DNA of 38,506 nucleotides from IMG/VR virus record IMGVR_UViG_3300031566_000165, positions 1-38,506 of that record. One strand, written 5' to 3'. This document shows positions 1-38,147 of this stretch, piece by piece. The notes beneath the pieces were generated by a model. It was not told where the DNA came from and did no database searches. It worked only from the letters and a program-made list of their open reading frames with translations. This DNA is from a virus. The position numbers were made by a program, and so were the translations under genes. Each line of letters begins with the position of its first letter. Within the stretch, counting starts at the first letter, position 1.

Positions 1-1721
1 ACGCCCCGGATCATCCGAGTTGCGTTCTCAAGGTCAGCTCCTCCCGCAGTGGGGTTGACGGCTTGAGAACCAACCGCTTCAGCTGCACCAATAGGGTTGG
101 CCATTGTGTTATCGGAACCCATCTGGGTGCCTACCACAGTGGGTGTACTAACAGCTTCGGGGGATTGCTGGTTAGCAGCAGGATTAGCGAGAGCACGGCG
201 CTGCATTTCGTAAGCCAGACCAGGGAACTTCTGTGCCCAAATCTCAAGGTCTGCAGACATCTGCGGGGAGCCGCCAGTCCCGCCGACATACTTCAGAAGT
301 TCACGATTAACTTCCGGTTGAGCGGAATAAGCTGCGCGAGCACGGTAATAGTCAGCGATGTTCTTATATCGCTCAGGACTCATAGGCTCCATCAGGCGCT
401 CAGCCGCAGCAACCCGTGGATCGGCCTGAGCAAGTTGCTCCCGCCTTTCACTTGCACGGTCACCGTTGGTTACGACGGGAGCGGGAAGCGTGGGGTCAAC
501 GTTGGAGCCACCGGGAGGAACTGCGCCAGGAAAGGTGGGAGGAGCAACCGTCGGGTCGATTGGAGGAACTCCAGGAGGTTGAGCGGTCACAGGAGTTTCA
601 AGAGTCGGGCTGGGTTGCGTTTCAGGCTGGCCAGCCATTTGATCGACTGCCTCGTTAATACCTTGAGGCATCGAGGGGGCTCTATCGCCGCCTCCAGCCA
701 TACGGCTAAGACCAGCAACGCCAAGACCACCAGCGGTCAAACCAAGACCAGCCAGAATCGCGGGGTCGACATTTCGGAGAAGACCGAAATCAGCCTTCTG
801 GACGCCAGGAACAGCAGCTGAAAGCATCTCAGGGTCAAGGACGCGAACACTGACGTCTTCGGCGGTCTGATTAACAACGCTACCGCCGGGTGAGCGGACC
901 AAAGCACCCGGATCGCCAGGGCGAGTCATGGCAGAGCCACGGGTGGGAACCATCGGTCCTCCCTGAGCCAAACGAACGGCAGTGGGAAGGTCGTTACCTG
1001 CTTCGATAAAGTTAATAACCTTATTTCCGTTAGGACCAGTAATAGCTTCGACGACTTCAAGCATCGGAGCACCGGTCTTCTGCGCTAAAGGAGCAGAAAG
1101 CTCAGCAATTGCACGGAAAGTACCAGGGTCAGCCTGACGCAGCGACATAAGCTCATCGCTCATGCGTTGAACGTTGAACTGAGGTTCAGGAGCGGGAGCA
1201 CCACTCATTCGAGCGGGACCCTGGACCGCCGTGGTACGGGGGACTTGACTCAAGCGAGCCTGACGAGCAGCTTCCTCAAGGAAGGAAGGGCTAGCGCCAC
1301 CCCGCTGAAGACGCATCAAGATCTCAGGGTCAACCCGTCCCATAAGACCTGCTTGCTCCGCTTCGGTGGCAATGCCGCGCATCCGAGAAGCAGAAGATTC
1401 AGCAGGAAGAGCACGCTGCTCAGAACGAATAACATCCGTAACGTCTTCACCCGCAGATTTTGCGGGGGAATAAGCCCGTGCTCCTCCTCCGGGTTGACGG
1501 AGATCAAGACGAAGTTGACTACCCTGAAGAGGTTCAGGGGCACGAGAAGGACGGATTTGCTCAATAGCTTCCTTTACTTCTCGTGCTTGCTGAGGCGTAA
1601 TTCCTTTACCGCCAAGAGCACGCTGAATAAGATCAAGAGTATCGTCCGCACTTGACTTGGCACCCCTTGCAAAGTCGGAAAGACCTTGGACAATATTTAA
1701 AAACCCTTCGGGAGACGCCAC
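1..1721 (-). CDS. Long low-complexity phage protein, partial (runs off left edge)
   Basis: Reading the reverse complement from 1721 gives one frame open to the window edge (at least 573 codons), so the C-terminus is missing. I place the start at GTG 1721, because an in-frame TAG lies four codons upstream and no ATG is available; no clear ribosome binding site is visible. The protein is rich in Ala, Gly, Pro and Gln. It has a short hydrophobic Gly/Leu/Ala stretch around residues 320-335, then a Pro/Thr-rich linker, then a charged, probably helical part containing PMSPERYKNIADYYRARAAY. It is the last gene of the minus-strand virion block, 28 bp after its neighbour. I do not recognise a family. 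Composition and position suggest a structural, internal virion or tail-associated protein; this is inference. Confidence 0.7.
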   Translation of the reverse strand, partial: MASPEGFLNIVQGLSDFARGAKSSADDTLDLIQRALGGKGITPQQAREVKEAIEQIRPSRAPEPLQGSQLRLDLRQPGGGARAYSPAKSAGEDVTDVIRSEQRALPAESSASRMRGIATEAEQAGLMGRVDPEILMRLQRGGASPSFLEEAARQARLSQVPRTTAVQGPARMSGAPAPEPQFNVQRMSDELMSLRQADPGTFRAIAELSAPLAQKTGAPMLEVVEAITGPNGNKVINFIEAGNDLPTAVRLAQGGPMVPTRGSAMTRPGDPGALVRSPGGSVVNQTAEDVSVRVLDPEMLSAAVPGVQKADFGLLRNVDPAILAGLGLTAGGLGVAGLSRMAGGGDRAPSMPQGINEAVDQMAGQPETQPSPTLETPVTAQPPGVPPIDPTVAPPTFPGAVPPGGSNVDPTLPAPVVTNGDRASERREQLAQADPRVAAAERLMEPMSPERYKNIADYYRARAAYSAQPEVNRELLKYVGGTGGSPQMSADLEIWAQKFPGLAYEMQRRALANPAANQQSPEAVSTPTVVGTQMGSDNTMANPIGAAEAVGSQAVNPTAGGADLENATRMIRG

Positions 1722-22409: not shown

Positions 22410-22495
22410 TGCCCGAGGCGAGACTTGAACTCGCACAACCCTGTCGAGTCAACGGATTTTAAGTCCGGTGCGTCTACCGATTCCGCCACTCGGGC
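22410..22495 (-). tRNA. tRNA-Leu (anticodon UAA)
   Basis: The minus strand folds as a class II tRNA. The acceptor arm is GCCCGAG/CTCGGGC. The D arm contains TGGCGGAATCGGTAGACGC, the anticodon loop CTTAAAA carries UAA, the variable arm is long as expected for Leu, and the T arm is GCGAG-TTCAAGT-CTCGC. The discriminator base is A and CCA is not encoded. At 86 nt it has no intron, unlike the tRNA-Leu(UAA) of many cyanobacteria, which holds a group I intron in the anticodon. It probably supports UUA decoding in phage genes. Confidence 0.97.
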
Positions 22496-26868: not shown

Positions 26869-27159
26869 TCACCTAGAGCACCTTCCGCTCTCAAGACGGT
26901 CACGAAGTCGGTGCAGCTCAGCTTGAAGCACAGTAATTGCACTATCTTGCTTCACATCGTCTGGAAGAGCACCCATCTCCCCGCGTGGCCATAAGATTCT
27001 GAACTCCGTGTTTTGCTCTACATTCATATTTAGTTTCATAATTTCGTGCTCTATGTGGTACATCTTGGAGTTTATGCCGCTTGCCCACCACACAGCGACG
27101 CCAGCCTGAACGGCGATGGCGATAATTCCGCCAATAATTTCTAGATTAAGTTTATCCAT
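26869..27159 (-). CDS. Membrane-anchored coiled-coil protein, 96 aa
   Basis: A 96-residue protein with an N-terminal membrane helix (IIGGIIAIAVQAGVAVWWAS, about residues 8-27), a helix, the conserved-looking FRILWPRGEMGALPDDVKQD (53-72) and a C-terminal coiled coil (ITVLQAELHRLRDRLESG). Such a membrane anchor plus coiled coil resembles XhlA-like or i-spanin proteins of lysis cassettes, and I recall similar WPRGE proteins from cyanophages. A lysis role is plausible but unproven. It begins next to the large structured RNA region, transcribed the other way. Confidence 0.72.
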   Translation of the reverse strand: MDKLNLEIIGGIIAIAVQAGVAVWWASGINSKMYHIEHEIMKLNMNVEQNTEFRILWPRGEMGALPDDVKQDSAITVLQAELHRLRDRLESGRCSR

Positions 27160-27168
27160 ATCAAATTA
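27157..27168 (+). repeat. 12-bp direct repeat flanking the structured RNA locus, left copy
   Basis: CATATCAAATTA occurs here and again at 28486-28497, one copy just outside each end of the gene-free structured region. It may mark the edges of an inserted cassette, a shared regulatory site, or chance. Confidence 0.4.
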
Positions 27169-27241
27169 TTTAAGTGAATTAATTCTAAGACGCAAAATTC
27201 TGGGCGAAATTTTTTTTCGCAGGGCGTATCAGCATGTTGAT

Positions 27242-27255
27242 AGTCAAAACTTTGA
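27242..27255. promoter_or_regulatory. Short palindrome upstream of the structured RNA, possible operator
   Basis: GTCAAA-AC-TTTGAC is a 6-bp-arm palindrome in the gap between the divergent 96-aa gene and the structured RNA. A weak TTGATA/CAAAAT promoter pair spans it (17-bp spacing). It could be an operator for the RNA promoter. Evidence is suggestive only. Confidence 0.3.
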
Positions 27256-27399
27256 CCCCCAAAATTCCAGCAAGATACCCAGACCCTTCTCGGCGGCGGC
27301 GTCGGTACGCGTGTATATCTAAAAAAAAGGGGTCATTGCGGGGTGGCAAAGTTACACCTACCGGGCACACATGTGAAGGGGCATGATGACTTGGTGGGA

Positions 27400-27412
27400 A
27401 TCCTTCCTAGAA
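27400..27412 (+). repeat. 13-bp direct repeat inside the RNA ends, left copy
   Basis: ATCCTTCCTAGAA occurs here and at 28213-28225. Both copies are followed by related sequence (CAAT, two bases, then CCACGGG; the left copy has one extra T before CAAT). The left copy overlaps the closing helix by two bases; the right copy ends 2 bp before its partner strand. The repeat may be structural, for example for alternative closing helices. Confidence 0.7.
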
Positions 27413-27736
27413 TCAATGGCCACGGGCTGAGCCCTGCGGTGGGGTGGGGCGGTTGCTTTTAAATTAATTTAGAACGCGTGCGCGATCTATATATGCACCC
27501 AGCTCACCTAGTGTGACGGTCAGATCTCTGGCACACCTAGGCTGGGGATTGGGCAGGCTGTGCCCTTATGCTGGCATCAAGCCAAACGGGAGCGATCCCA
27601 AACGGCCAGAACCTAGACAATCCAACACACCAGGGCCAGCCGAACCGGTAGCCGTGGCAGTGAAACTCAGAAGCCTTGCGCCTTGAGATCCTTTGCGATC
27701 CCGCCATTGTTTCAGATTGTTTCAATCCCTGCCCTT

Positions 27737-27917
27737 ACGGTTCCGACAGGCTGCCCCCATGCTGTAGGATCTGGGTATCAGGGATCAAACCCTGCGCACC
27801 TTGACAATCCAAACACTCCCTGCCTGATACATGGGCGGACCCGTAGGGAGAGTGTGCCCCTTTATCGGTGGACTCCGAGCAAGGCATACGTTCCGACGGG
27901 CTGCTTGAAACTGTAGG
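27737..27917 (+). repeat. Duplicated RNA module within the structured RNA
   Basis: TTCCGAC(A/G)GGCTGC, a variable loop, then CTGTAGG occurs at 27737-27768 and 27888-27917. Another shared block, CCT(A/T)GACAATCCAA, lies before each copy (27612 and 27799). In the first module ACAG pairs with CTGT; in the second ACGG still pairs with CTGT through a G-U, a compatible change. This points to an internal duplication of an RNA domain. Confidence 0.6.
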
Positions 27918-27943
27918 CGTGGTGTGTGTGGACTCGAGGGGAG

Positions 27944-27955
27944 GAACCTTGAAAA
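27944..27955 (+). promoter_or_regulatory. Cyanobacterial rRNA-type boxA antitermination sequence
   Basis: GAACCTTGAAAA is identical to the boxA antiterminator known from cyanobacterial 16S-23S spacers, where Nus factors (NusB/S10) bind the RNA. The following bases (CTGAATAA) also resemble the usual spacer continuation. Here it sits in the middle of the structured RNA and not next to an rRNA gene. It may prevent premature termination of the long structured transcript or bind host Nus factors. Confidence 0.65.
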
Positions 27956-28212
27956 CTGAATAACGGGACAGGCACCGACGTGGTGAGGGTAGGCGAACTA
28001 GCGCCGCACCATGCACGGCCCTGATGCGGACTGCGCCGATGGTGTGCGCAGTAGCCAGACGGCGGCGGCCGGACTGAAATTAACGCGAGCAGTGGCAGGC
28101 TCACCGTCCCGATAGGTTAACTTTCTCTTTCGCCATGCGTGGGCCCGCGAGAATACTGTGTCCAGAGTAACTGTCTCTGATGCAGGTACGCTGGACAGAC
28201 TCGGGAGGGGCC

Positions 28213-28225
28213 ATCCTTCCTAGAA
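28213..28225 (+). repeat. 13-bp direct repeat inside the RNA ends, right copy
   Basis: Exact second copy of ATCCTTCCTAGAA (left copy 27400-27412), immediately before the 3' strand of the closing helix. Confidence 0.7.
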
Positions 28226-28297
28226 CAATTCCCACGGGGTCCGGAATCACAACAATTTGCACAATTGAATAGCTTTTGTGCGCATAATGTGCGCTAT

Positions 28298-28326
28298 GCT
28301 CGGTTTTTATTCCGGGCCTTTTTTCC
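28298..28326 (+). terminator. Intrinsic terminator of the structured RNA (plus strand)
   Basis: GCTCGG-(8 nt)-CCGGGC forms a 6-bp stem with one G-U pair, followed by one C and eight T. It is preceded by two further hairpins (GCACAA/TTGTGC and GCGCA/TGCGC). It lies 180 bp before the first protein gene on this strand, so the RNA upstream is probably a free transcript, not a leader. Confidence 0.85.
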
Positions 28327-28393
28327 AGAACTGCACCCCAGCGGGGCCTCGTATTAGTTACAGGCTCAAAGTTGGGGTGCTACTTCTACTTTC

Positions 28394-28415
28394 TGATGAT
28401 CATTCGTGATCATTA
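28394..28415 (+). other. UUCG-capped hairpin in the leader of the small-gene chain
   Basis: TGATGATCA-TTCG-TGATCATTA is a 9-bp stem (one G-T pair) with the very stable UUCG loop, 95 bp before the first start codon. An imperfect stem (28440-28470, CCCTAAGCC against GGTTTAGTGAGGG) follows. Both arms carry the self-complementary TGATCA that also recurs at the downstream gene junctions. A role in mRNA 5'-end protection or translational control is possible. Between 28327 and 28394 there is also an 8-bp stem, GCACCCCA/TGGGGTGC (28333-28380). Confidence 0.6.
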
Positions 28416-28485
28416 GGTTTTCTCGAGTTTCTGACTCTCTCCCTAAGCCATTTCGGTTTAGTGAGGGACTCAAATTCCCTCCATT

Positions 28486-28497
28486 CATATCAAATTA
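28486..28497 (+). repeat. 12-bp direct repeat flanking the structured RNA locus, right copy
   Basis: CATATCAAATTA, identical to 27157-27168. It lies just upstream of the ribosome site (AGGTG) of the first gene of the small-gene chain. Confidence 0.4.
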
Positions 28498-28509
28498 CAG
28501 GTGATTCTC

Positions 28510-28827
28510 ATGACTGTTTTTGTTGACCAAGATGCACGCGTTGAGCTTGAACTTTACTCGTGCAACTTCTCTTCTGCTCACTACAACGATGTGGGCAAAG
28601 TTCTCTCCAAGTTTCATAAGAACGGCACTTACGATTACGAACGTGCTGTTAAGTACATCGAGCGCAATTTGGTACTTCCTGCTGCTAAGGATTACCTAAT
28701 GTGCCACGGCTCGATGACTCAATCCCTGCGCAATACGTTCCCCAAGAACCTGCGTATGGTGATAGCTGAGGATATAGCTAACGCGTTCCGCGCTGAGTTC
28801 GAACTTGGCAACTACTGGGAGATCTGA
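28510..28827 (+). CDS. Hypothetical protein, first of the small-gene chain, 105 aa
   Basis: I choose ATG 28510 because AGGTG lies 7 nt upstream; a GTG three codons earlier is part of that site. The 105-residue product begins MTVFVDQDARVELELYSCNF and is mostly helical afterwards (NDVGKVLSKFHKNGTYDYER; EDIANAFRAEFELGNYWEI at the end). No family is recognised. It heads a chain of nine plus-strand genes with almost no spacing and is preceded by a long hairpin-rich leader. Confidence 0.78.
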   Translation: MTVFVDQDARVELELYSCNFSSAHYNDVGKVLSKFHKNGTYDYERAVKYIERNLVLPAAKDYLMCHGSMTQSLRNTFPKNLRMVIAEDIANAFRAEFELGNYWEI

Positions 28828-28829
28828 TC

Positions 28830-28943
28830 ATGACAGACACTGAATACATGGCAATGATCGAGGCCGAATGGAACAACCCATCGGACGATATAGATCTGTT
28901 CGACGAACTTAACTCTTTCGAAGAATCACTACCTGAGGACTGA
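28830..28943 (+). CDS. Acidic micro-protein, 37 aa
   Basis: ATG 28830, two bases after the previous stop (TGA-TC-ATG), encodes MTDTEYMAMIEAEWNNPSDD, then an acidic Leu/Phe/Glu end before TGA 28941. It is followed by a two-base gap and the next gene. The strictly repeated spacing supports translation. Strongly acidic; function unknown. Confidence 0.62.
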   Translation: MTDTEYMAMIEAEWNNPSDDIDLFDELNSFEESLPED

Positions 28944-28945
28944 CT

Positions 28946-29149
28946 ATGCGATCTGATTACGCAACGCCCGGAGACTTCGCTAAGTGGAGATCCCACGCGG
29001 AGACTTTAGATACCTATTCTCTGCGATTCATCATCACAGACTGTAGGCAAGCTGCAGCTAACTTGCGCCAGGTTAATCCTGTCCGTGAGGGTTATTACGA
29101 GGACCAAGCATTCACTTACGCCGACGAACTTCACCGGAGGAAACTATGA
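28946..29149 (+). CDS. Hypothetical small protein, 67 aa
   Basis: A 67-residue protein (MRSDYATPGDFAKWRSHAET, then a helical DTYSLRFIITDCRQAAANLR and an aromatic, charged end). It follows its neighbour by two bases and overlaps the next gene by 4 bp (ATGA). Helix-rich; no family recognised. GGAGG near its 3' end is the ribosome site of the next gene. Confidence 0.7.
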   Translation: MRSDYATPGDFAKWRSHAETLDTYSLRFIITDCRQAAANLRQVNPVREGYYEDQAFTYADELHRRKL

Positions 29150-29337
29150 ACCGCTTCAAAGCTGTCTACCAAGAGTGGACCGAAGAGGGTCCTGTGCGCC
29201 ACTTCATTGACATCTACGCTCGAGATCTTGAGCAAGCAAAGGATAAGTGGTGCGCTATGCGTACACAGAACGAGTTCCTACTTAGCTTGCACAAAGTAGT
29301 CACACCGTCTGAACACTGGAAGTCAATCGGAGTCTGA
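29146..29337 (+). CDS. Hypothetical small protein, 63 aa
   Basis: A 63-residue protein starting MNRFKAVYQEWTEEGPVRHF, with IDIYARDLEQAKDKWCAM (about residues 21-38). The beta-strand then helix pattern, with AxDLEQAK, resembles small phage proteins in which a short sheet is followed by a helix. GGAGG lies a few bases upstream of the ATG, a good ribosome site. Function unknown. Confidence 0.7.
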   Translation: MNRFKAVYQEWTEEGPVRHFIDIYARDLEQAKDKWCAMRTQNEFLLSLHKVVTPSEHWKSIGV

Positions 29338-29339
29338 TC

Positions 29340-29531
29340 ATGCATCACAAACGAAAACAAGAACTACGCTGGATAGTTGTAGATCATATCTTCGATCTGT
29401 ATCACTACGGTGATGAGATTCTCGGTGAACAACTAACTGAAGAAGAGAGCCGTTACTTATACGACTTAGCTGTACGAGTTGCTCGTAACTTCAACGTCCG
29501 TAACCACATCGACCTACCTGAAGGTATCTGA
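29340..29531 (+). CDS. Hypothetical small protein sharing a 38-bp repeat with the 34105 gene
   Basis: A 63-residue basic and helical protein (MHHKRKQELRWIVVDHIFDL). Residues 25-36 (DEILGEQLTEEE) are encoded by 38 bp identical to 34354-34391, indicating recombination or copying between two loci 4.9 kb apart. It is joined to both neighbours by TGA-TC-ATG. Function unknown. Confidence 0.7.
   Translation: MHHKRKQELRWIVVDHIFDLYHYGDEILGEQLTEEESRYLYDLAVRVARNFNVRNHIDLPEGI
29412..29449 (+). repeat. 38-bp exact repeat, copy 1
   Basis: The sequence from GATGAGATTCTCGG to GAAGAAGAGAG is identical to 34354-34391. In both places it encodes DEILGEQLTEEE in frame, but downstream sequence differs. Confidence 0.9.
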
Positions 29532-29533
29532 TC

Positions 29534-29899
29534 ATGTCTTGCACTAAATTCACAGTCGATCTTCACGAAGCTGAGCCTCACAGTGATCTCAAGTGGCGTT
29601 ACTTCAAGTTCCTCTACTTACTAGATCCTGTGGGTGAAGGTGATGAGAAAGTAGGCAACATTCAGATGAGTTCATTCACGGGCTTGTTTTATGTCGACTG
29701 GGAACATGTTCCCGGTGATGATGAGTTCCAATGGCGCTCATTCGATAGCTATGAGAAAGCTCTTAAGTTTGTACGCTCCAACATACTTAAGTGGTGGCAG
29801 CAGTATCACACATTCGAGCAAGATAATGAGCTCGATGATGATAATGACTGGGGCGAATCGTGCCTCACAGCTTCCGAACGTAATCCATTCATGCACTGA
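29534..29899 (+). CDS. Hypothetical protein, 121 aa
   Basis: A 121-residue acidic protein. The central part has aromatic and beta-like sequence (GNIQMSSFTGLFYVDWEHVP, about residues 42-61) followed by a helix with Trp/Lys (KALKFVRSNILKWWQQYHTF) and a run of Asp/Glu/Asn. No family is recognised. It starts after TGA-TC-ATG and is followed one base after its stop by the next gene (TGA-T-ATG). Confidence 0.75.
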   Translation: MSCTKFTVDLHEAEPHSDLKWRYFKFLYLLDPVGEGDEKVGNIQMSSFTGLFYVDWEHVPGDDEFQWRSFDSYEKALKFVRSNILKWWQQYHTFEQDNELDDDNDWGESCLTASERNPFMH

Positions 29900-29900
29900 T

Positions 29901-30068
29901 ATGGATCAAGTCATCCTGCGCACCGTAATCACACTGAACGGCACAGACTTCACTGTGAATCGCTGTGACTACACTCAAACCATCAACGATCTAATCGAAG
30001 ACGGAATTATCGAAGAGAACAACAACGAGATCATCGACTTCATTATCGAAGACTACGAGGAGCCCTAA
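29901..30068 (+). CDS. Acidic micro-protein, 55 aa
   Basis: ATG 29901 gives MDQVILRTVITLNGTDFTVN, then a helical, very acidic tail (DLIEDGIIEENNNEIIDFII) to TAA 30068. The N-terminus looks like two beta strands, the rest helix. The single-base gap to the previous gene and two-base gap to the next fit the chain. Function unknown. Confidence 0.62.
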   Translation: MDQVILRTVITLNGTDFTVNRCDYTQTINDLIEDGIIEENNNEIIDFIIEDYEEP

Positions 30069-30070
30069 TC

Positions 30071-30250
30071 ATGAAAGTGTCCCGTGAGTTTATGCGTCGT
30101 CTTGTTCGTGCTTATGAACAGGATTTGATCCAGTTAATTAACACCACGCCGGATCATCCTGGTGGCGATTGGGCTACGAAAGACCTAATGACCGTGGAAG
30201 ACATTAGGGAGATGACATTTGATCCTTTTCTTCAACACATCGAGTTCTGA
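30071..30250 (+). CDS. Hypothetical small protein, 59 aa
   Basis: ATG 30071 (after TAA-TC) encodes MKVSREFMRRLVRAYEQDLI, then TTPDHPGGDWATKDLM and an acidic end, stopping at TGA 30248. A basic N-terminal helix is followed by a proline-rich turn. It is joined to the next gene by TGA-TC-ATG. No family recognised. Confidence 0.65.
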   Translation: MKVSREFMRRLVRAYEQDLIQLINTTPDHPGGDWATKDLMTVEDIREMTFDPFLQHIEF

Positions 30251-30252
30251 TC

Positions 30253-30477
30253 ATGACCAAACTAACTTCCGAACAAGTAGATCTCCTGCGTGATTCTTAC
30301 GCATGGAAGATTGTCGATGACATGGATGTTAAGGATCTTATGGAATCCTGTGCGCTTCAGATAGCGAATGAGCTTATGAACGTGGAGCAACAACAGTTAA
30401 TCGCAGAGATCACTGAGATGTACGACGAAGATACAGCTCAAGATCTAGTCAACAAAGTAATCACTCACACCAAATGA
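30253..30477 (+). CDS. Conserved small acidic protein (cyanophage-type), 74 aa
   Basis: A 74-residue acidic helical protein: LTSEQVDLLRDSYAWKIVDD (about residues 4-23), MDVKDLMESCALQIANEL, then an acidic helix with EMYDEDTAQDLVNKVI. I recall similar DSYAWKIVDDMD(x)KDLM proteins in cyanophage genomes, with unknown role. It is the last member of the TGATCATG chain and overlaps the next gene by 4 bp. Confidence 0.75.
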   Translation: MTKLTSEQVDLLRDSYAWKIVDDMDVKDLMESCALQIANELMNVEQQQLIAEITEMYDEDTAQDLVNKVITHTK

Positions 30478-31187
30478 AAGCCATGACTAACTACAAAGGC
30501 TACGTTCTTCAACGCGGAACATCACCAATCGACGGCAAACCTTTCGTTGTCATCATGACAATGAAGACCACCAATCGTAAGACTGGCGATATGGTTCAGG
30601 TCTGGATTCTTCGGGATGACGTTAATCCTGTGGAAGCTATTGCCACGGGTGATGACTACAGTATCTGCGGCAACTGCAGTCACCGTAAGCAACCTGATGG
30701 CACTCGTTCTTGCTACGTCAACGTAGGTCAGGCTCCCTTAAGTATCTGGAAAGCCTACAAGCGTGGCACTTACGGCAAGCTGTCTGACCTGACGGCTGAG
30801 ATGCTGCAAGGTCGCAAGATCCGCTGGGGTGCTTACGGGGATCCCTCGCTTGTCTCGCCGATCCTGTTCGCAACGATCAATGAGCATGCGGCAGGGCACA
30901 CAGGCTACACACATCAATGGCGCGAGCCTTGGGCACAGTGGTGCAAGGGATTGTTTCAGGCATCCTGTGATGGTATGGATGACTACCTTGACGCTAGTGC
31001 TCACGGATGGCAGACTTTTGCAGTGATTCCCAAGGGATCACAAGCGTACAGCGGCAAGCTGTGTCCAGCCACGGCTGAGAACTCGCAAGCCCAATGCGCT
31101 TCTTGCAGCCTTTGCGATGGGGCAAAAGCGGACATCTTTGTAGAGGCTCACGGGTCTGGCGCTAAGTACGTCACCGCATCCCGCTAA
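30474..31187 (+). CDS. Conserved Cys-rich phage protein, 237 aa
   Basis: A 237-residue protein of a type I recognise from phages of several host phyla. It has a conserved N-terminal NRKTGDMVQVWILRDDVNPV (about residues 35-54), then GDDYSICGNCSHRK (61-74) with CxxC, SCYVNVGQAPLSIWKAYKRG (about 81-100), and a C-terminal C...C..C..C cluster (AQCASCSLCDG). The Cys sets suggest zinc or an iron-sulfur cluster. The biochemical role is not established; some relatives sit near replication genes. The start is ATG 30474 (overlapping the previous stop) or 30483. Confidence 0.82.
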   Translation: MKAMTNYKGYVLQRGTSPIDGKPFVVIMTMKTTNRKTGDMVQVWILRDDVNPVEAIATGDDYSICGNCSHRKQPDGTRSCYVNVGQAPLSIWKAYKRGTYGKLSDLTAEMLQGRKIRWGAYGDPSLVSPILFATINEHAAGHTGYTHQWREPWAQWCKGLFQASCDGMDDYLDASAHGWQTFAVIPKGSQAYSGKLCPATAENSQAQCASCSLCDGAKADIFVEAHGSGAKYVTASR

Positions 31188-31229
31188 CGCGGGGCCAACT
31201 CACACAACACACTCACACATCACATCGTC

Positions 31230-31442
31230 ATGAGCCTTTACAACGTCTACGAACTTTCTACGCAGTCGCTCGCTTACCACGCTGCGGAACGCTTCAAGCA
31301 TCTCCTAGTGAGCGGGATGCTGCCGGGTGACATCATCGACAAACTCGAAGAAGAGGTTATCCCTGCACTCGAATGGATCGAAGGATGGGAGCCTTCCGAT
31401 GCTGACATCCTGGCTCACATCGATTCCCATGGGCTCTTTTAG
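31230..31442 (+). CDS. Hypothetical small protein, 70 aa
   Basis: A 70-residue acidic, helical protein (STQSLAYHAAERFKHLLVSG; DKLEEEVIPALEWIEGWEPS). The 42-bp leader before ATG 31230 is CA-rich (ACACACTCACACATCACATC) with no Shine-Dalgarno, a pattern repeated before other genes here. No family recognised. Confidence 0.7.
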   Translation: MSLYNVYELSTQSLAYHAAERFKHLLVSGMLPGDIIDKLEEEVIPALEWIEGWEPSDADILAHIDSHGLF

Positions 31443-31466
31443 AGTTTTAATAGCCGGATTCGATTG

Positions 31467-31649
31467 ATGTATACACTCAAGTTGTCTGAACGTGAGTTCT
31501 ATTTAGTTAGGAGGGCACTAAATGCTCTCAGGACTAAGCAAGAACTTAACTCTTTGAGCTGTACCGAAAGACAAGTAATCGTCTTTAAGGATACTGTGGA
31601 TGAGATCAGAAAGCTTGAGGAGCGAATGAAATTACAGGAGATCGACTAA
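31467..31649 (+). CDS. Helical micro-protein, 60 aa
   Basis: I use ATG 31467; the preceding TTG is the weaker alternative. The product starts MYTLKLSEREFYLVRRALNA and is a helical, charged protein with a coiled-coil-like C-terminus (KDTVDEIRKLEERMKLQE). Function unknown. It lies 24 bp after the previous gene. Confidence 0.65.
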   Translation: MYTLKLSEREFYLVRRALNALRTKQELNSLSCTERQVIVFKDTVDEIRKLEERMKLQEID

Positions 31650-31680
31650 CTACAACAACACTCACCACGCCTCAAAGATC

Positions 31681-31857
31681 ATGGACAACTTCACTCTCAG
31701 ATTCAGAGACAACGAAAACAACTTAACCAAGACAGTGATCCAAGCCAGCGGCAGAGCTGATGCGATGACTCAGTTCCGGAGCATCTACCCAACAAACCTG
31801 CTGTACTACATCATCAACAACGAAGAACTCAAAACCCATGGGACGCCCGAAGACTAA
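31681..31857 (+). CDS. Micro-protein, 58 aa
   Basis: ATG 31681 encodes MDNFTLRFRDNENNLTKTVI, then QASGRADAMTQFRSIYPTNL and a polar end, stopping at TAA 31855. The pattern of two beta strands, a helix and another strand (RADAMTQFRSIYP) is found in small phage proteins such as the one at 29146. CA-rich leader without a Shine-Dalgarno. Confidence 0.6.
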   Translation: MDNFTLRFRDNENNLTKTVIQASGRADAMTQFRSIYPTNLLYYIINNEELKTHGTPED

Positions 31858-31903
31858 GACTAAAGCTCGATTCTCCTATTCCCGCAAACCCTCAGATGAT
31901 TAG
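31838..31903 (+). CDS. Basic micro-peptide, 21 aa
   Basis: ATG 31838 (within the previous gene) encodes a very basic peptide, MGRPKTKTKARFSYSRKPSD with one more Asp, stopping at TAG 31901. It overlaps both neighbours by 20 bp and 8 bp. Too short to be sure; it is listed because the overlaps mimic coupled genes elsewhere in the window. Confidence 0.35.
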   Translation: MGRPKTKTKARFSYSRKPSDD

Positions 31904-32168
31904 CTTCTTCTGCGCTGCTGGAATGGCAGCATGCATGATCCAGCACCTAAACAACGTTAGAGACTACACATGCATTGAACGCTCACAGGACTACTACCAG
32001 TGCGTCAAATACCCCGACGAAGTTCGGCAAGGGCAGCGCTTACAGACTCTTCAGGAGACAAAGTATGAGCTGTTCGAGCTTGACCGATGGGTGCAATCTC
32101 ACCACGGGGCACCCTCTGGACATACCCAAACTCATCAGTCACAAGCTGACTGCCAGTCAAAGGGTTGA
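31896..32168 (+). CDS. Hypothetical protein, 90 aa, antisense to the next gene
   Basis: A plus-strand frame with a hydrophobic N-terminus (MISFFCAAGMAACMIQHLNN, possibly a signal or lipoprotein-like segment), then Cys/Tyr-rich sequence resembling the short secreted or membrane proteins seen at 22824 and 32509 (IERSQDYYQCVKYP). The last 164 bp are antisense to the minus-strand 156-aa gene, and its final 20 residues are low-quality His/Gln/Ser sequence. The true gene may be shorter or disrupted. Confidence 0.5.
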   Translation: MISFFCAAGMAACMIQHLNNVRDYTCIERSQDYYQCVKYPDEVRQGQRLQTLQETKYELFELDRWVQSHHGAPSGHTQTHQSQADCQSKG

Positions 32169-32475
32169 CCCCGATAAAAGCTCTACCCGCCTCTTCCTCT
32201 TCAGGGACAACACCGTAGGGAGAACGTGATGTGTAACCTACCTGCACACCCTTATCCCTAGGGTCTACAGTGACACTGAAGTTACCCTTATCAAACCCGA
32301 TCCTCCCTGAACGAGGATCAAAGCGCACGGCTCCTGAAGGATCCTCCATTTCGATGGCGCCTCCTTGCAAGAGTCGGAGGGCACGAGCGAGCTCCTCTCC
32401 GTACCCTGCACGCATGATCTGATCCGTCGGACCCATAGCGGGATCCAAGGCCTGGCCTGCGTAGCGAATGTCCAT
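32005..32475 (-). CDS. Hypothetical structural-type protein, 156 aa, lone minus-strand gene
   Basis: A 156-residue protein with beta-rich central sequence (GAVRFDPRSGRIGFDKGNFS, about residues 48-67; GVQVGYTSRSPYGVVPEEEE) and a helical C-terminus (LSPEESVSAALAELRRG). It is the only minus-strand gene in the right-hand plus-strand block. Style and codon use resemble the minus-strand virion proteins at 1-2400, so it may be a stray virion gene. It overlaps the convergent plus-strand 90-aa frame by 164 bp. Confidence 0.65.
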   Translation of the reverse strand: MDIRYAGQALDPAMGPTDQIMRAGYGEELARALRLLQGGAIEMEDPSGAVRFDPRSGRIGFDKGNFSVTVDPRDKGVQVGYTSRSPYGVVPEEEEAGRAFIGVNPLTGSQLVTDEFGYVQRVPRGEIAPIGQARTAHTLSPEESVSAALAELRRGI

Positions 32476-32508
32476 TACTTAATTCTCGTTAAGTTAAGTC
32501 TACCAACC

Positions 32509-32760
32509 ATGAACAAGCACACCAAAGGAACTCCTTACTCCTTTATTTCCTTACTTCCTTACTTCCTTGCAGCAATGGGTGGCGTTGCACTCACCACCTG
32601 GGGAACTGTCGAGATCCAGCGTGAGTTGAACGCACAGGCTCAGCGAGCTTGTAAGAGTGACCACTATCGCCGACTTGTTACGTTCCGAGGAGCTGCAGGT
32701 GACACCAGCTACTGCATCCCTGCCTACTTCACCAACGGTTCTGTTTCTCACCCTGACTGA
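32509..32760 (+). CDS. Small membrane or exported protein, 83 aa
   Basis: I start at ATG 32509 (MNKHTKGTPYSFISLLPYFL). A basic N-terminus and one hydrophobic helix (about residues 10-30, through AAMGGVALTTW) are followed by a polar domain with two Cys (QRACKSDHYRRLVTFRG; TSYCIPAYFTNG), the same plan as the 22824 and 31896 products. The two Cys could form a disulfide outside the cytoplasm. The stop overlaps the next start by one base (TGATG). Confidence 0.68.
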   Translation: MNKHTKGTPYSFISLLPYFLAAMGGVALTTWGTVEIQRELNAQAQRACKSDHYRRLVTFRGAAGDTSYCIPAYFTNGSVSHPD

Positions 32761-33077
32761 TGCTGTCCTCTGCTCTTCTACCTTTCGCTCGACTAAACCC
32801 ACGAGAGATCAACTGCAACACACTGGTCGTATTTCTGGCTATCGCTGAATCAGGCGAGCAAGGGGTCAAGCAAGCAGACCTGGCTCTGCGTCTCCGGATT
32901 GCAAAGTCCAGTGTTTCTAGGAACTGCGGGATTCTTGGACTTAAAACCCAGAAGAACAAAGATGGACTCGGACTGATCAAAGTAGATCCGTGGCCCAAAG
33001 ACCCACGCATCAATCTCTTGAGTCTCACAGATAAGGGCTACGATCTTTACGAGACCATGACCGCATACCTCCCCTGA
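32760..33077 (+). CDS. MarR-like winged-helix DNA-binding protein, 105 aa
   Basis: A 105-residue protein with a winged-helix pattern: NTLVVFLAIAESGEQGVKQA (helix 1 and turn, about residues 20-39), DLALRLRIAKSSVSRNCGIL (helix-turn-helix, the recognition helix containing KSSVSRN) and a wing with GLIKVDPWPKDPRINLLSLT, then KGYDLYETM. This closely follows MarR-type domains in which the wing is followed by LTDKG. It is probably a transcription regulator of phage or host genes. It is coupled to the preceding membrane gene by TGATG. Confidence 0.82.
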   Translation: MLSSALLPFARLNPREINCNTLVVFLAIAESGEQGVKQADLALRLRIAKSSVSRNCGILGLKTQKNKDGLGLIKVDPWPKDPRINLLSLTDKGYDLYETMTAYLP

Positions 33078-33141
33078 GGTTAGGGGTTGTACTGTTTGTT
33101 TAACTGTACTTGCTTAGTTCTACACACTACGAGGTTCACCA

Positions 33142-33543
33142 ATGATTTCTAACTCCGCCGAACGACGGCAACGCATTAAAGAACAAAGCAAAGAGGTTGC
33201 TAATTACATGAACTGCATCGAACCATCGCCTGAACTTGTCCGTAAATGGCAGATCAAGATTGAATACTGCAGTAAACGCGCAGACCGCGAAGCTGCTGTA
33301 GTCAAGATTTTTCAGCTTGGTGCGGATATGGAGCTGGAGGCGTGCATAAAACTGTTGTCTGATCTTGGTGGCGATGGTGAAATGATCCGCCGCTATCGCC
33401 GCCCCAAGCCGCCGAGCTTGAAGGAGCAGGCGCTGCAGGCAGCACAGCGTTTCTACGCAAATGGTCACGAAGACTGCAACGACGAAGAGGTAAAGGATGA
33501 CTTTGACATCATCCGCCGCGCTCTTGAATCCCTGCCCGATTAG
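33142..33543 (+). CDS. Hypothetical helical protein, 133 aa
   Basis: A 133-residue charged, helical protein (RRQRIKEQSKEVANYMNCIE; RKWQIKIEYCSKRADREAAV) with a C-terminal segment KEQALQAAQRFYANGHEDCN and an acidic end. GAGG lies 8 nt before ATG 33142, one of the few proper ribosome sites in this part. An AT-rich gap of 64 bp with a short CCCCT/AGGGG stem precedes it. No family recognised. The 186 bp after it contain nothing I can assign except CCGGA-TTT-TCCGG (33696-33708), a small hairpin. Confidence 0.72.
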   Translation: MISNSAERRQRIKEQSKEVANYMNCIEPSPELVRKWQIKIEYCSKRADREAAVVKIFQLGADMELEACIKLLSDLGGDGEMIRRYRRPKPPSLKEQALQAAQRFYANGHEDCNDEEVKDDFDIIRRALESLPD

Positions 33544-33729
33544 TCAACATCACTAGTTGTTCAACATCGCACGCATTAACCCAAGTGCTGTTCGCGTTGA
33601 TGAACATAAAGCCTACTTTGTGTCCTGTCGTCTAACCTCATTGGCTCGATTAACTTGTAAGGCGTGCTTACACGTTGCCCGAACGTGTCAAACATTCCGG
33701 ATTTTCCGGACAGTTCATCTACCCCTCAA

Positions 33730-34053
33730 ATGACTGACATCCTTGACGACTCCTACGAAAGCGACCTCACCGAAGAGGAGCACGAACGGCTGATCCTGAT
33801 GAGTGAGCACGCCATCGCACCACCGCTTTCACCTGCTGCCCAGGCGGTGTTTCACGCCTTCAACAGCAAGTTTGATTGGGTGGACGACGGAGTGCCTGGC
33901 CCCCAGTTCGAGGCAATCGCCGCCGCCATTCGTGCTGCTGCGGATCAGGTGGTGCCAGTGCCGATCGAAGCTCAAACTCCAGAAGAGCACTGGGCACTGC
34001 TTGGCGTTAAGAACCGCTTGCTCGCCATCGCTGACGAGCTTAAAACTTGGTAG
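33730..34053 (+). CDS. Conserved small cyanobacterial/cyanophage-type protein, 107 aa
   Basis: I start at ATG 33730 (MTDILDDSYESDLTEEEHER); the upstream extension looks non-coding. The C-terminal part follows a pattern I recall in many Synechococcus and cyanophage small proteins: PLSPAAQAVFHAFN, AIAAAIRAAADQVVP and LLAIADEL. Their function is unknown. GC content here is a little higher than in neighbours, which would fit recent exchange with a host. Confidence 0.75.
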   Translation: MTDILDDSYESDLTEEEHERLILMSEHAIAPPLSPAAQAVFHAFNSKFDWVDDGVPGPQFEAIAAAIRAAADQVVPVPIEAQTPEEHWALLGVKNRLLAIADELKTW

Positions 34054-34104
34054 CCGCAGTACAATCCACCCGTACACTGTCGTAACACACCTCCTCACAA
34101 GAAC

Positions 34105-34413
34105 ATGATCCTCAACATTTCACTCTCCGAAAGGTTTGACGACGAGCTGTCTAAACCTCAGCACATTTCAACAAACATCATGGCAGATCTTAAGCACAGA
34201 GACGTCCATGCTTACTTTGAGGTCTTCGTTCGTGTTCTGAAGTTCGCAGGTTTCTACGAAAAATCGATCGCAGTTGGTGCAGCAGAGATTGCTTTGAACA
34301 CTACAGACGAAACTTTGAAATACATTCTCGATGAATACGATCTGCTTAGAGCAGATGAGATTCTCGGTGAACAACTAACTGAAGAAGAGAGAAGAAGCTT
34401 ACGAAAAAGTTGA
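34105..34413 (+). CDS. Hypothetical protein with probable frameshifted end, 102 aa
   Basis: A 102-residue helical, acidic protein (FDDELSKPQHISTNIMADLK; HAYFEVFVRVLKFAGFYEKS) ending with DEILGEQLTEEERRSLRKS. Bases 34354-34391 are an exact copy of 29412-29449. Right after the copy the +1 frame continues as EEAYEKVEEVTDKLSNG to TGA 34442, next to the dCTP deaminase start. Removing the 10-bp near-duplicate GAAGAAGAGA would restore one frame through to that stop. The current C-terminus is therefore probably the result of a recent recombination. Confidence 0.65.
   Translation: MILNISLSERFDDELSKPQHISTNIMADLKHRDVHAYFEVFVRVLKFAGFYEKSIAVGAAEIALNTTDETLKYILDEYDLLRADEILGEQLTEEERRSLRKS
34354..34391 (+). 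repeat. 38-bp exact repeat, copy 2
   Basis: Identical to 29412-29449; lies at the point where the 34105 gene appears frameshifted. Confidence 0.9.
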
Positions 34414-34440
34414 AGAGGTCACGGATAAACTCAGCAACGG

Positions 34441-34974
34441 TTGAAGTTAAAGACTGTGGCAGTTCTCTGTGATTGGCAGATCAAGGCTCTCTGTAACGGG
34501 GGCGCGATAACTCCCTTCGACCCCACGCTGGTGAATCCCGCTTCCTTAGACGTTCGATTGGGTACTCACATCTTTGTGGAAGACGAGGAGGTAGGTCTGC
34601 ATGCCGCTTCGTTAGAAGGACATACACAAGACAACCCTTATTACCTGTACCCCAATGAGTTCATGCTCGCAGAGACTATGGAGACTTTTAACATCCCAGA
34701 GAATGTGTGCGCTCAGTATGCGTTGAAAAGTTCTCTAGCAAGAGCGGGATTTGAACATCTTCTCGCTGGTTGGATTGACCCAGGGTTCAGTAATTCTGTA
34801 CTTACACTCGAGCTGAAGAACGCTCGCAAATACCAACCAATCCCCCTCTGGCCTGGTATGCGTATCGGACAGATCATCTTTATGCAGATGGATGAAACTC
34901 CTCAAGTTAGCTACAAACAATCTGGTCGCTACAACGGTGACAGAAAGGTAGCTATGTGTAAGGGGCTTATGTAA
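34441..34974 (+). CDS. dcd: dCTP deaminase
   Basis: A 177-residue protein of the dCTP deaminase/dUTPase family, of normal length. It has VAVLCDWQIKALC at the N-terminus, PASLDVRLG (33-41), the substrate-site ALKSSLARAGFEHLLAGWID (94-113, with the KSSLAR motif), DPGFSNSVLTLELKN (113-127, the catalytic Glu being in LTLEL) and PLWPGMRIGQIIF. The enzyme turns dCTP into dUTP, feeding dTTP synthesis for phage DNA replication. The start is TTG 34441 or GTG 34456; the GTG gives the more typical N-terminus. TTG overlaps the stop of the shifted frame of the previous gene, hinting at coupling. Confidence 0.92.
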   Translation: MKLKTVAVLCDWQIKALCNGGAITPFDPTLVNPASLDVRLGTHIFVEDEEVGLHAASLEGHTQDNPYYLYPNEFMLAETMETFNIPENVCAQYALKSSLARAGFEHLLAGWIDPGFSNSVLTLELKNARKYQPIPLWPGMRIGQIIFMQMDETPQVSYKQSGRYNGDRKVAMCKGLM

Positions 34975-35151
34975 TATCTGGAGAGAACATCACATCGGTT
35001 TGTATACGTAACAACAAATGTAAATGTAATCAAACAAGTGCAAACTTGATGAGCATTGTTTAATTAGAAAAGTCTTTAATAACTAGAAAGTTGAACATAC
35101 TATAGCTCCAAGTAAATTTATGTAAAACCAACTCGCCCTATTTAAAAGGGG
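34975..35151. other. AT-rich spacer, no gene seen
   Basis: This gap is clearly AT-rich compared with the genes around it. I see no frame with coding character and no strong hairpin. It ends at the promoter at 35152, so it probably separates the dcd transcript from the MoxR operon. Confidence 0.5.
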
Positions 35152-35180
35152 TTGACACCATGAGCTCTATGCTCTAGATT
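35152..35180 (+). promoter_or_regulatory. Sigma-70-type promoter of the MoxR operon
   Basis: TTGACA (35152-35157) and TAGATT (35175-35180) are 17 bp apart, the best consensus promoter in the window. The spacer holds GAGC-TCTAT-GCTC, a small palindrome that could be an operator. The predicted start of transcription near 35187 leaves a leader of about 50 nt, ending in CATCACATCACACATC before ATG 35236. Confidence 0.75.
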
Positions 35181-35235
35181 CATTTACATGGGTGGCACCG
35201 ACCCGAACGCGGCGCGTACCATCACATCACACATC

Positions 35236-35661
35236 ATGAGTAAGATCACCGCTGCATCACTGATCACTAAAGCCCGCAAAACGGCAGCTGTCTGGAACGA
35301 AGCTGACGCAGCTTTATCTGAATGGAACGAGGGCTTCGGGCTAGAGCTCGACTGCCACAGGGATCTGCTGAAGAAAGAGTTCACCAAAGCCGATGCCCAA
35401 GGTCTCGATTTCAGTTGCTTCCAAGGCGAGCACTCCAGGCTGATCTACCCAGAGCTGGCAACTAGGATCATCGTCTCGATCCGAAAGGCACCGGCTGGGC
35501 ATGAAACCATCGAGGAAATGACTGCAGAGATCGACGAGCTCGAGTCGAAGCTCCGTCTCCTCAAGAAGAAGCGGAAGAACCGCATGGAGGAGATTGAACA
35601 AGAAGGAGAGTTCAACTTCCCTACCGAAAACATCACCATCGCTTTCAAGCGCACAAAGTAA
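35236..35661 (+). CDS. Coiled-coil protein heading the MoxR operon, 141 aa
   Basis: I start at ATG 35236 (MSKITAASLITKARKTAAVW); the frame before it covers the promoter leader. The 141-residue product is helical, with a long C-terminal coiled coil (TIEEMTAEIDELESKLRLLK and KKKRKNRMEEIEQEG). No enzyme motif. One base separates its stop from the next start, so it is an obligate operon member and may be an adaptor for the ATPase system. Confidence 0.75.
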   Translation: MSKITAASLITKARKTAAVWNEADAALSEWNEGFGLELDCHRDLLKKEFTKADAQGLDFSCFQGEHSRLIYPELATRIIVSIRKAPAGHETIEEMTAEIDELESKLRLLKKKRKNRMEEIEQEGEFNFPTENITIAFKRTK

Positions 35662-35662
35662 C

Positions 35663-36856
35663 ATGTCGGATCACATCTACCTGCTTCAAGTCGCAATCAG
35701 CGCCAAGGTCCGCCAAAGCACCACCATTCAATTCAAAGACCTGAAGCTCCCTGATTCCGTAGTCGACGCATTTGAGAAACAGAGAGCAGTCTCTGTACGC
35801 CCTGTGCTCTCCAGCAAGCTGAAGGATTACTTATCCGTCCTGCGGACTGAGCAACACAAGCTCTACGAAGAGTGCACCATCAATCAAGGCGACACCCATT
35901 TCCTCCACGGTGACTCGTTTAACGAAGCGATGGAGCGGATCGGATTCATCCGCAGCAAAGCAAAAGAGTTCAACAGTCTCCTGAATAATCTCTGGTACCA
36001 GGAGTACTCACAGTGGGTGACCACCGTGGACAACTTCTTGGATCCTCTCTTCTCCGAAGAGCCTGAGGCGCTCAAACTTGCTAAGGAGTTGTACCTTTCT
36101 CTTTTCCCTACGAAGAAAGAGTTCGAGAATCCGATCCAGGTGTTCGTGGTTGGTCCTAACCCCGTGTGTCTGACGGAAGCTCGGCACGCTGACGATCACC
36201 CACTGGCTGATCAGATCTTCCACGCGTCTTTGTCGCACACCACTGAGGTGTTGATGGCGGCGAAGGAAGGGGCAGCTGATCGTGCCTTCATGAAGGCAGC
36301 AAAGCTAATCGACGACCTCGATGTCCGGAAGGCAACTAACGTTTCCGAAAGGCAGACAGGGTCGACTAAATCTCGTGGCTCCTGGCAGCTTATCGCGCAG
36401 GATCTGCAACTGATTAGCAAGCACTGCGAGGGTTTTGATGGGGTGGCCTCTCTTGCCGAGAGGTTGCTTGAAGTCGGTGTGAACCTTCAGTCGTCAGTAC
36501 CCAAGATTCGAAACGAGGCCTTCAATCAATTCAGCGAAGTCAAGCGAGCTATCAGACGCGAACTTGATTCAATCGTGGAGGCGCGTCACTCAACCAAGGG
36601 ACTCGAAGCACTTCAAAAGTCTCTGTCCCTATCTGGAGAGTACGCCGACCTACTTGCTCAGATCGAACAGGTCACCACGCGGGCTGAACTGGACGAGCTA
36701 AGCAGCTTTGTAGAAGTCGAAAAAGGCATCTACCAACAGCGGGCAAAAGAACTCCAAAAGTCCGTTAACGCTAAGGCCGAACTTCTAAAAGCTTCTTCAA
36801 TCTCATTTGAGGACACTGTGAAAGAAGTCGTCTCCATAACTACTCCTGACTTTTAG
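35663..36856 (+). CDS. DUF3150-like protein of a phage MoxR module, 397 aa
   Basis: I start at ATG 35663 (MSDHIYLLQVAISAKVRQST). The 397-residue product is helical, begins with a short beta/helix unit and ends in coiled coils (ALQKSLSLSGEYADLLAQIE; VEKGIYQQRAKELQKSVNAK). Gene order with a MoxR-type ATPase two genes downstream matches phage clusters in which a DUF3150 protein accompanies CobS/MoxR-like ATPases and a CobT/VWA-like partner. I therefore suggest DUF3150, by context and general style, not by a proven motif. The family has no known activity. Confidence 0.65.
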   Translation: MSDHIYLLQVAISAKVRQSTTIQFKDLKLPDSVVDAFEKQRAVSVRPVLSSKLKDYLSVLRTEQHKLYEECTINQGDTHFLHGDSFNEAMERIGFIRSKAKEFNSLLNNLWYQEYSQWVTTVDNFLDPLFSEEPEALKLAKELYLSLFPTKKEFENPIQVFVVGPNPVCLTEARHADDHPLADQIFHASLSHTTEVLMAAKEGAADRAFMKAAKLIDDLDVRKATNVSERQTGSTKSRGSWQLIAQDLQLISKHCEGFDGVASLAERLLEVGVNLQSSVPKIRNEAFNQFSEVKRAIRRELDSIVEARHSTKGLEALQKSLSLSGEYADLLAQIEQVTTRAELDELSSFVEVEKGIYQQRAKELQKSVNAKAELLKASSISFEDTVKEVVSITTPDF

Positions 36857-36859
36857 ACC

Positions 36860-36961
36860 ATGAAACATCCGCTGAACATCAAACTCCTTCTCTCAAGCAA
36901 AGCACTTACCTGCGTTTACAAACGACCCTCGTTGATCAAGCGTCTCTTCAAAATTATCTGA
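36860..36961 (+). CDS. Basic micro-peptide, 33 aa
   Basis: ATG 36860, three bases after the previous stop, encodes MKHPLNIKLLLSSKALTCVY then KRPSLIKRLFKII before TGA 36959. It is hydrophobic and strongly basic, possibly amphipathic, and ends one base before the ATPase gene. The exact fit between two genes supports it, though a simple spacer is not excluded. Confidence 0.48.
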   Translation: MKHPLNIKLLLSSKALTCVYKRPSLIKRLFKII

Positions 36962-36962
36962 C

Positions 36963-38147
36963 ATGAACAAAACCCTGTTTGCCAACCTCCAGAACTTCCG
37001 CGCTTCTTTAAACGCTTCCTTCTTGGAGCGCAGCGTCGTCATTGACGGCTTACTCGCCAGCCTCATCACAAAACAGAATGCTTTCCTTTTCGGTCGACCA
37101 GGGACAGGTAAGTCCGAGCTTGTCCGAGCTGTAGCGAAAGGCTTCACTGGCTGCAGTTTCTTCGGTTATCTCCTCTCTCCCACGACGGATCCATCTGAGT
37201 TGTTTGGTCCTGTCGCTGTATCCAAACTCCTCAAGGATGAGTACACGAGAGACGTAGAGGGTTACCTACCTACAAGCAATATTGCTTTTCTCGACGAGCT
37301 CTTCCGAGGGAGTTCAGCCGTACTCAACTCTCTGTTGACGATCCTCAACGAGCGGACCTTCAACAACGGTAAGGATGTAATCGAGACACCTATTCAATCG
37401 ATCGTCGCCGCCACTAACTCGTTTCCTCAGGAAGAATCTCTTCAGGCATTCTGTGATCGCTTCCTTTTCAGGCCGACTGTTGAGTCCCTACTTAAGCCTG
37501 TATCGAAACGGATTCTTGACCAGTGGACGTTCGGTATTCAGCAACGACCTGCAGTCGAATCAGATCTCAAGTTCGAAGACTTGCTACAGCTTCAAAAAGA
37601 TGTAAATGAGATCAAAGTCGACGAGGAGTTCTTAGATCGTTTCAACCAAGTAATCGATCTCCTATCTGCTCGAGGAGTGTCGATTAGTGATCGGCGAAGA
37701 GTCCAGATCCTCAGGTTTATGCGTGGTTGGGCTCTTGTGCAGGGTGACGATTGTCTCTACGCGGAACACCTACATCGACCCTTCCCCCACATCGTCTACC
37801 AAAACAAAGAGGACATTCGAGCTATCAAGGAAGTCTTGATGCAGGCGATCCCAACTGCTGAGAAGCAGATGGAGGACATCAAGAAAGCTCAAAACGCAAT
37901 CATGACTGAGTACCACGGGGTCTTTACAAAGACATCTAAGTCTTTGAGCGAACTCAGCTCGAATGTAGAGAAACTAAAACGACACCATAAAGATCTCTCG
38001 ACCCTCGCGAATAAGCTCGATGAGATACTCGATGGCGGAAGCTACAGAGTTACCGCAGCTGCACGCAGGGAAGCAACAAAAGTATCTCAGCTGATCGAAC
38101 AGTCCAAACAACTTGTAGCTAAATCAATCTCAGACATCACACCATGA
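36963..38147 (+). CDS. MoxR-family AAA+ ATPase, RavA-like
   Basis: A 394-residue AAA+ protein. Walker A is GRPGTGKS (44-51). After it comes the RavA-like block YLLSPTTDPSELFGPVAVSK (69-88) and GYLPTSNIAFLDELFRGSSA (100-119), with Walker B IAFLDE. Then come LNSLLTILNERTFNNG (121-136), sensor 1 in VAATNSFPQEES (148-159) and arginine finger CDRFLFRP (164-171). The C-terminal third is a coiled coil. MoxR/RavA ATPases are hexameric chaperones that work with a VWA-domain partner such as ViaA. In phages their targets are unknown. The next gene, overlapping by 4 bp, sits where the partner belongs. Confidence 0.92.
   Translation: MNKTLFANLQNFRASLNASFLERSVVIDGLLASLITKQNAFLFGRPGTGKSELVRAVAKGFTGCSFFGYLLSPTTDPSELFGPVAVSKLLKDEYTRDVEGYLPTSNIAFLDELFRGSSAVLNSLLTILNERTFNNGKDVIETPIQSIVAATNSFPQEESLQAFCDRFLFRPTVESLLKPVSKRILDQWTFGIQQRPAVESDLKFEDLLQLQKDVNEIKVDEEFLDRFNQVIDLLSARGVSISDRRRVQILRFMRGWALVQGDDCLYAEHLHRPFPHIVYQNKEDIRAIKEVLMQAIPTAEKQMEDIKKAQNAIMTEYHGVFTKTSKSLSELSSNVEKLKRHHKDLSTLANKLDEILDGGSYRVTAAARREATKVSQLIEQSKQLVAKSISDITP

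Follow-up and report, generated by a model that had tools for sequence, protein, structure and literature searches.

Three 17-nucleotide sites in the leader of a long rightward gene block of this phage are very probably, to judge from their sequence, genuine boxA signals of the type that serves the rRNA operons of picocyanobacteria. The sites lie in the window, by which we mean the whole 38,506-nucleotide stretch of DNA analysed (Table 1). We consider it probable that the leader, which is presumed to be transcribed as RNA, mimics the rRNA and rpsJ leaders of the host and recruits NusB-S10 for processive transcription of the operon downstream. The boxA identity of the sites is well supported by a scan with a host-derived matrix, by identity with rpsJ and 16S-leader sites and by conservation in related phages.

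Table 1. Leader, boxA sites and neighbouring features of the window.
Feature	Position	Strand	Remarks
Last gene of leftward block	26869-27159	-	Flanks the leader
Non-coding leader/control region	27160..28500	+	About 1.3 kb; no convincing ORF; homologous leaders in relatives
5' anchor, conserved	27322..27342	+	AAAAAAAGG-N-ATTGCGGG, TTCTCG upstream; used for motif-free sampling of the leader family
Weak promoter-like element	27549..27577	+	TTGGGC-N17-TGGCAT, ahead of copy 1
Hairpin, boxB-like position	27581..27606	+	Ends 2 nt ahead of copy 1; z -2.5 for 27570-27630
boxA copy 1	27609..27625	+	GAACCTAGACAATCCAA; 23.6 bits with host matrix; identity with L313/L433
Hairpin CAGGG-AUCAAA-CCCUG	27779..27794	+	Ends 1 nt ahead of copy 2
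boxA copy 2	27796..27812	+	GCACCTTGACAATCCAA; 22.3 bits with host matrix
boxA copy 3 (site of the preliminary description)	27944..27960	+	GAACCTTGAAAACTGAA; 23.3 bits with host matrix
Conserved domain directly 3' of copy 3	27961..28113	+	About 94% identity in L189
Candidate intrinsic terminator	28237..28324	+	10-bp stem GGTCCGGAAT/ATTCCGGGCC, long loop, then T6; -27.2 kcal/mol
Rightward block, co-directional, mostly small genes	28501..38147	+	Presumed beneficiary operon
Regulator-like gene, rightward block	32760-33077	+	
dCTP deaminase, rightward block	34441-34974	+	
ATPase gene, rightward block	36963-38147	+	

The preliminary description had singled out a 12-mer, GAACCTTGAAAA, as a boxA of the kind found in cyanobacterial 16S-23S spacers. 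The 12-mer is located precisely at 27944-27955 of the plus strand, where the sequence continues with CTGAATAA, and it is the sole exact copy on both strands of the window, the chance expectation for exact copies of a given 12-mer being, by arithmetic, about 0.005 per 77 kb of strand. Alone it provides weak evidence, because five sites with up to two mismatches are found against 4.2 expected; its significance derives from its context as the third in a set of local repeats and from its place among the top-ranking host-matrix sites. Repeat analysis groups it with GAACCTAGACAA at 27609 and GCACCTTGACAA at 27796, at spacings of 187 and 148 nt, while a matrix built only from Cyanobiaceae rRNA-operon boxA sites (leader and spacer) ranks copies 1, 3 and 2, in that order, as the three best positions of the window, with the next position at 11.9 bits. 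All three are in the sense orientation and inside the leader, and the random expectation is 0.0021 sites per genome at or above 22.2 bits (from 467 random genomes with matched dinucleotide composition). The host-matrix scan, the rpsJ and 16S-leader identities and the relatives thus bear out the reading of the 12-mer as boxA; it is not, however, a solitary spacer-type signal but one of three, the other two being of the 16S-leader/rpsJ type.

In the Cyanobiaceae the pattern G[A/C]ACCTnGACAAYYnAA is found 320-590 nt 5' of the 16S gene in 66 of 69 loci, and the 16S-23S spacer carries GAACCTTGACAACTGCATAG, which has been published as the picocyanobacterial boxA (PMC9769826), GAACCTTGAAAA being the form named boxA in other cyanobacteria (PMC8461337). 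The phage sites have this motif, with the same variants, in common with the rRNA boxA of 16S leaders and spacers in these candidate hosts. The GCACCT form of copy 2 is also present in host 16S leaders, and GCACCTGGACAACCGAA is identical in two phage loci (L178, L022) and two host 16S-leader loci (L285, L300). Copy 1 matches at 17 of 17 positions a site between tuf and rpsJ (S10, that is NusE) in one picocyanobacterial genome. Sites resembling boxA lie about 50 nt 5' of rpsJ in most of 30 Cyanobiaceae genomes, 15 of them scoring at least 14 bits against an antisense maximum of 11.4, and the rpsJ leaders swap GAAAA and GACAA forms as the phages do. The pattern with which the host sites were first detected owed its form to phage and spacer motifs; the sites themselves were fixed independently by their position (16S, rpsJ) and conserved flank. 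The rpsJ-upstream sites lie in L313 (about 1600-1625, minus strand) and in most of L433-L462. Such sites suggest NusE autoregulation in cyanobacteria, and boxA 5' of rpsJ has been predicted as a Nus-factor target in other bacteria (PMC5725501). Of 41 host genomes 40 encode NusB, whereas for Rho there are only weak matches, none of them above the cut-off in any of the 41. Beyond the Cyanobiaceae, Nostocales chromosomes present a recurrent non-rRNA boxA context, GAACCTTGAAAACTGAATAagaaatgggcaagttcacc, in L055, L072, L090, L093, L114, L115, L123 and L163.

The arrangement around the first boxA is also shared with the host. A stable hairpin ends exactly 1 nt 5' of the first boxA at a frequency of 77% in the phages and 78% in host 16S leaders, compared with 15% at random positions in the same leaders, and each outer position of this hairpin is occupied by at least four base-pair types. 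Later boxA copies mostly have no upstream hairpin; in the window hairpins precede copies 1 and 2 and none precedes copy 3, whose 5' half can pair locally with TCGAGG. The hairpin ahead of copy 2 has a near-identical counterpart before a boxA copy in L336. The boxA itself is among the least paired stretches, with an average unpaired rank of 0.85 in phage leaders versus 0.88 in hosts. Further upstream, 17 of 30 leaders carry TTGAC at 40-85 nt before the first boxA where 2.5 would be expected, an enrichment which suggests that transcripts begin near the hairpin. Relatives present TTGACn-N16..18-TAnnnT at the position of the promoter-like element; that of the window is weak, and a promoter consensus scan of the window gave no match above chance.

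The leader is structured as a whole (fold z -3.6 for 27470-28330), while the domain of about 150 nt that follows copy 3 has a folding energy no better than shuffles. No Rfam large RNA family, GOLLD and ROOL included, matched at gathering score. A weak, sub-threshold resemblance to Ocean-VII (E 0.045) was seen at 27772-27805, spanning the hairpin before copy 2; Ocean-VII was rejected as a clue, as the RNA in contigs with its 18-mer is another one and lacks the boxA motif. The candidate intrinsic terminator is the only one in the window and is not a family-wide feature: two of 21 leaders have an intrinsic terminator between boxA and the first gene, the same proportion as in controls, so that a dedicated leader terminator or antitermination switch is not indicated and was rejected. 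No rRNA genes were found in the window, which speaks against an origin of the signal in an rRNA operon. Elsewhere in the window a tRNA-Leu (anticodon TAA) lies at 22410-22495 on the minus strand.

Comparison with relatives made use of leaders sampled without reference to the motif. The first downstream gene was rejected as an unbiased anchor because it is replaced between relatives, and a 5' DNA anchor was chosen instead (AAAAAAAGGN{2,5}ATTGCGGG, TTCTCGC upstream), giving 30 leaders that include two near-duplicate pairs. Sense boxA sites of at least 15 bits are present in 21 of these and of at least 10 bits in 25, against 0 of 30 in antisense; the remaining five have no recognisable boxA. Most leaders hold one or two copies, with a maximum of three, and each of the two largest relatives, near-complete at 87 and 81 kb, has its sole strong site in the leader. 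A scan of viral contigs with the pattern GAACCTNGACAATCNAANNA identified homologous leaders in several more, frequently with a pair of copies separated by about 150 nt. The L007 leader aligns at both ends and has a diverged middle in which GAACCTCGACAATCGAA is kept. The 5' part of the leader at 27245-27350 (AAGATACCCAGACCCTTCTCGCC ... ATTGCGGGG) is strongly conserved and common even to leaders that have no boxA. A possible three-way-junction domain was noted by eye right after the second and last boxA of L178 and L175, with sequences differing between relatives. In L196, at about 9954 on the reverse strand, GAACCTAGACAATCCAA stands just 5' of an ORF resembling a LAGLIDADG homing endonuclease, beside an apparently interrupted phage gene.

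In L189, identity to the window is about 94% over the 150 nt that follow the third site, but the site itself reads GAACCTGGACAATCGAATAA, another host-type boxA (the position homologous to copy 3 in full being GAACCTGGACAATCGAA). Conservation thus does not extend to the exact 12-mer, whose expected retention in homologues does not hold in this close relative. The preliminary description had regarded loss of the 12-mer within a retained surrounding as speaking against its proposal; such a loss is what L189 presents, although what has taken the place of the 12-mer is a boxA accepted by the hosts.

The window is itself a viral record of IMG/VR. The large terminase subunit (TerL) of the phage shows a 52% match, along its full length, to that of Synechococcus phage S-EIV1 and matches of 80-83% to those of six IMG/VR relatives, making a picocyanobacterial host likely. 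The TerL match to S-EIV1 together with the picocyanobacterial type of the boxA supports a cyanobacterial host, as the preliminary description had argued from the 12-mer. The 12-mer by itself is weak evidence for this and was rejected as a cyanobacterial marker, because GAACCTTGAAAACTGNATA is also carried by many Clostridia and other bacteria. In S-EIV1 the host-matrix scan found no leader boxA, its single moderate match falling within an annotated gene, and a blastn search with the leader matched no known phage.

In the mechanism that we favour, a long phage transcript of co-directional genes would begin with a leader holding one to three boxA sites, of which the first follows a hairpin. On emerging from RNA polymerase, boxA would be bound by host NusB-S10 (NusE), which with NusA and NusG would bring the polymerase into its processive, rRNA-transcribing form, and the modified polymerase could then cross the structured untranslated leader and several kb of small phage genes. 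Transcription start, protein binding and the effect on antitermination or processivity are all predictions made from the DNA. The E. coli rRNA complex chiefly counters Rho. Since the hosts here have no Rho to be protected from, the expected benefit would lie in processivity, in RNA folding, or in a polymerase that better withstands pausing or intrinsic termination.

The phage leader shares with the boxA of cyanobacterial rrn leaders and spacers the 17-nt motif and its permitted variants, the hairpin about 1 nt upstream, the location in a 5' leader and the sense orientation. It differs in that the phage sites precede protein genes in one to three copies, and the conserved downstream element of the host, AAGTTTAGGAACTGA, is absent. 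Like the boxA of rpsJ (NusE) and suhB (Baniulyte et al., 2017; PMC5725501), the phage sites lie outside rRNA, and one picocyanobacterial rpsJ site is the same as copy 1, but here they belong to a phage operon, in several copies, within a long structured leader and in a Rho-less host. The lambdoid nut sites, which combine boxA and boxB and act with the N protein, likewise place boxA and a hairpin in a phage leader, in several copies and with presumed control of downstream genes, whereas here the hairpin comes before boxA as in rrn, instead of boxB after it, and the boxA belongs to the rrn type of the host. Three boxA-bearing nut sites occur in the mEp021-type coliphages, which are non-lambdoid (PMC11893012). 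In our phage no N-like protein was recognised and no relation to lambdoid phages was seen; PHROG and Pfam scans of the downstream and other neighbouring proteins named no N-like arginine-rich protein, short proteins of this kind being easily missed. The put RNA of HK022, a direct antiterminator RNA, resembles the phage leader in being a structured leader with a possible action on RNA polymerase, and differs in working without Nus factors or boxA.

Other readings of the sites deserve consideration. It is conceivable, though rather unlikely, that boxA recruits the Nus complex mainly as a chaperone for folding or processing of the structured leader RNA and not against termination. The absence of Rho from the host, the structured nature of the leader and the presence of conserved domains 3' of boxA sites would all fit such a role, and the E. 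coli Nus complex is described as aiding rRNA folding. The domains after boxA vary among relatives, however, and that of 150 nt folds like its shuffles, while boxA persists; a hairpin and boxA heading a long gene block also suit control of elongation. We regard it as improbable that the sites sense free NusB/S10, in the way suggested for the autoregulation of rpsJ, and report the state of rRNA synthesis in order to repress or delay phage genes. This would accord with the identity of copy 1 to the rpsJ-upstream site of one picocyanobacterium, with the wide occurrence of such sites before rpsJ and with the known boxA-mediated repression of suhB (PMC5725501), but that repression was studied in a Rho-containing host and the phage sites adopt the hairpin geometry of 16S leaders and not the compact rpsJ arrangement.

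A decoy function, in which the leader RNA titrates NusB/S10 off the rRNA operons and alters host rRNA synthesis, appears very improbable. The up to three copies of some leaders would suit a sponge, yet most leaders have one or two and near-complete genomes a single strong site, and a sponge requires neither a place at the head of a gene block nor the hairpin spacing of active host leaders; the earlier suggestion that the phage RNA soaks up Nus factors has gained no positive support beyond its being possible. There is even less reason to believe that the 12-mer matches by chance or is just a structural element of a large RNA with no relation to boxA: for all that it is unexceptional once mismatches are allowed and belongs to a local repeat family, this reading is opposed by the host-matrix ranking, by the contrast between sense and antisense in independent leaders and by the like variation of host and phage sites (A/C at position 10, YY at 13-14, GAACCT/GCACCT). 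The reading that we consider likeliest is recruitment of NusB-S10 for processive transcription.

The exact boxA core of the window, GAACCTTGAAAACTGNATA, is found in 51 viral contigs (L382-L432), which represent 44 distinct contexts; most of these copies lie outside ORFs and at a distance from rRNA. Recurrent leaders were seen among these contigs (L393/L401/L415/L426/L431, L397/L411/L430 and L398/L403). Control of phage genes through boxA and Nus factors is known chiefly from lambdoid coliphages, which require the phage N protein, and no prior report of rRNA-type boxA in such cyanophage leaders was found in the open-access papers searched. What is new here is that signals of the nut/rrn type occur in a cyanophage lineage that is not lambdoid, in the exact form of the host rRNA leader with its hairpin geometry and in a host family without Rho. 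We put forward, tentatively, that phages infecting cyanobacteria without Rho, and probably others that are unrelated to them and have different hosts, may disguise their transcripts as rRNA operons by means of host-type boxA leaders, a widespread N-independent route to a Nus-modified polymerase. The role of the Nus complex in the absence of Rho becomes testable in this system, the leader offers a sequence marker for the picocyanobacterial hosts of uncultured phages, and phage gene expression would be tied to the rRNA machinery of the host.
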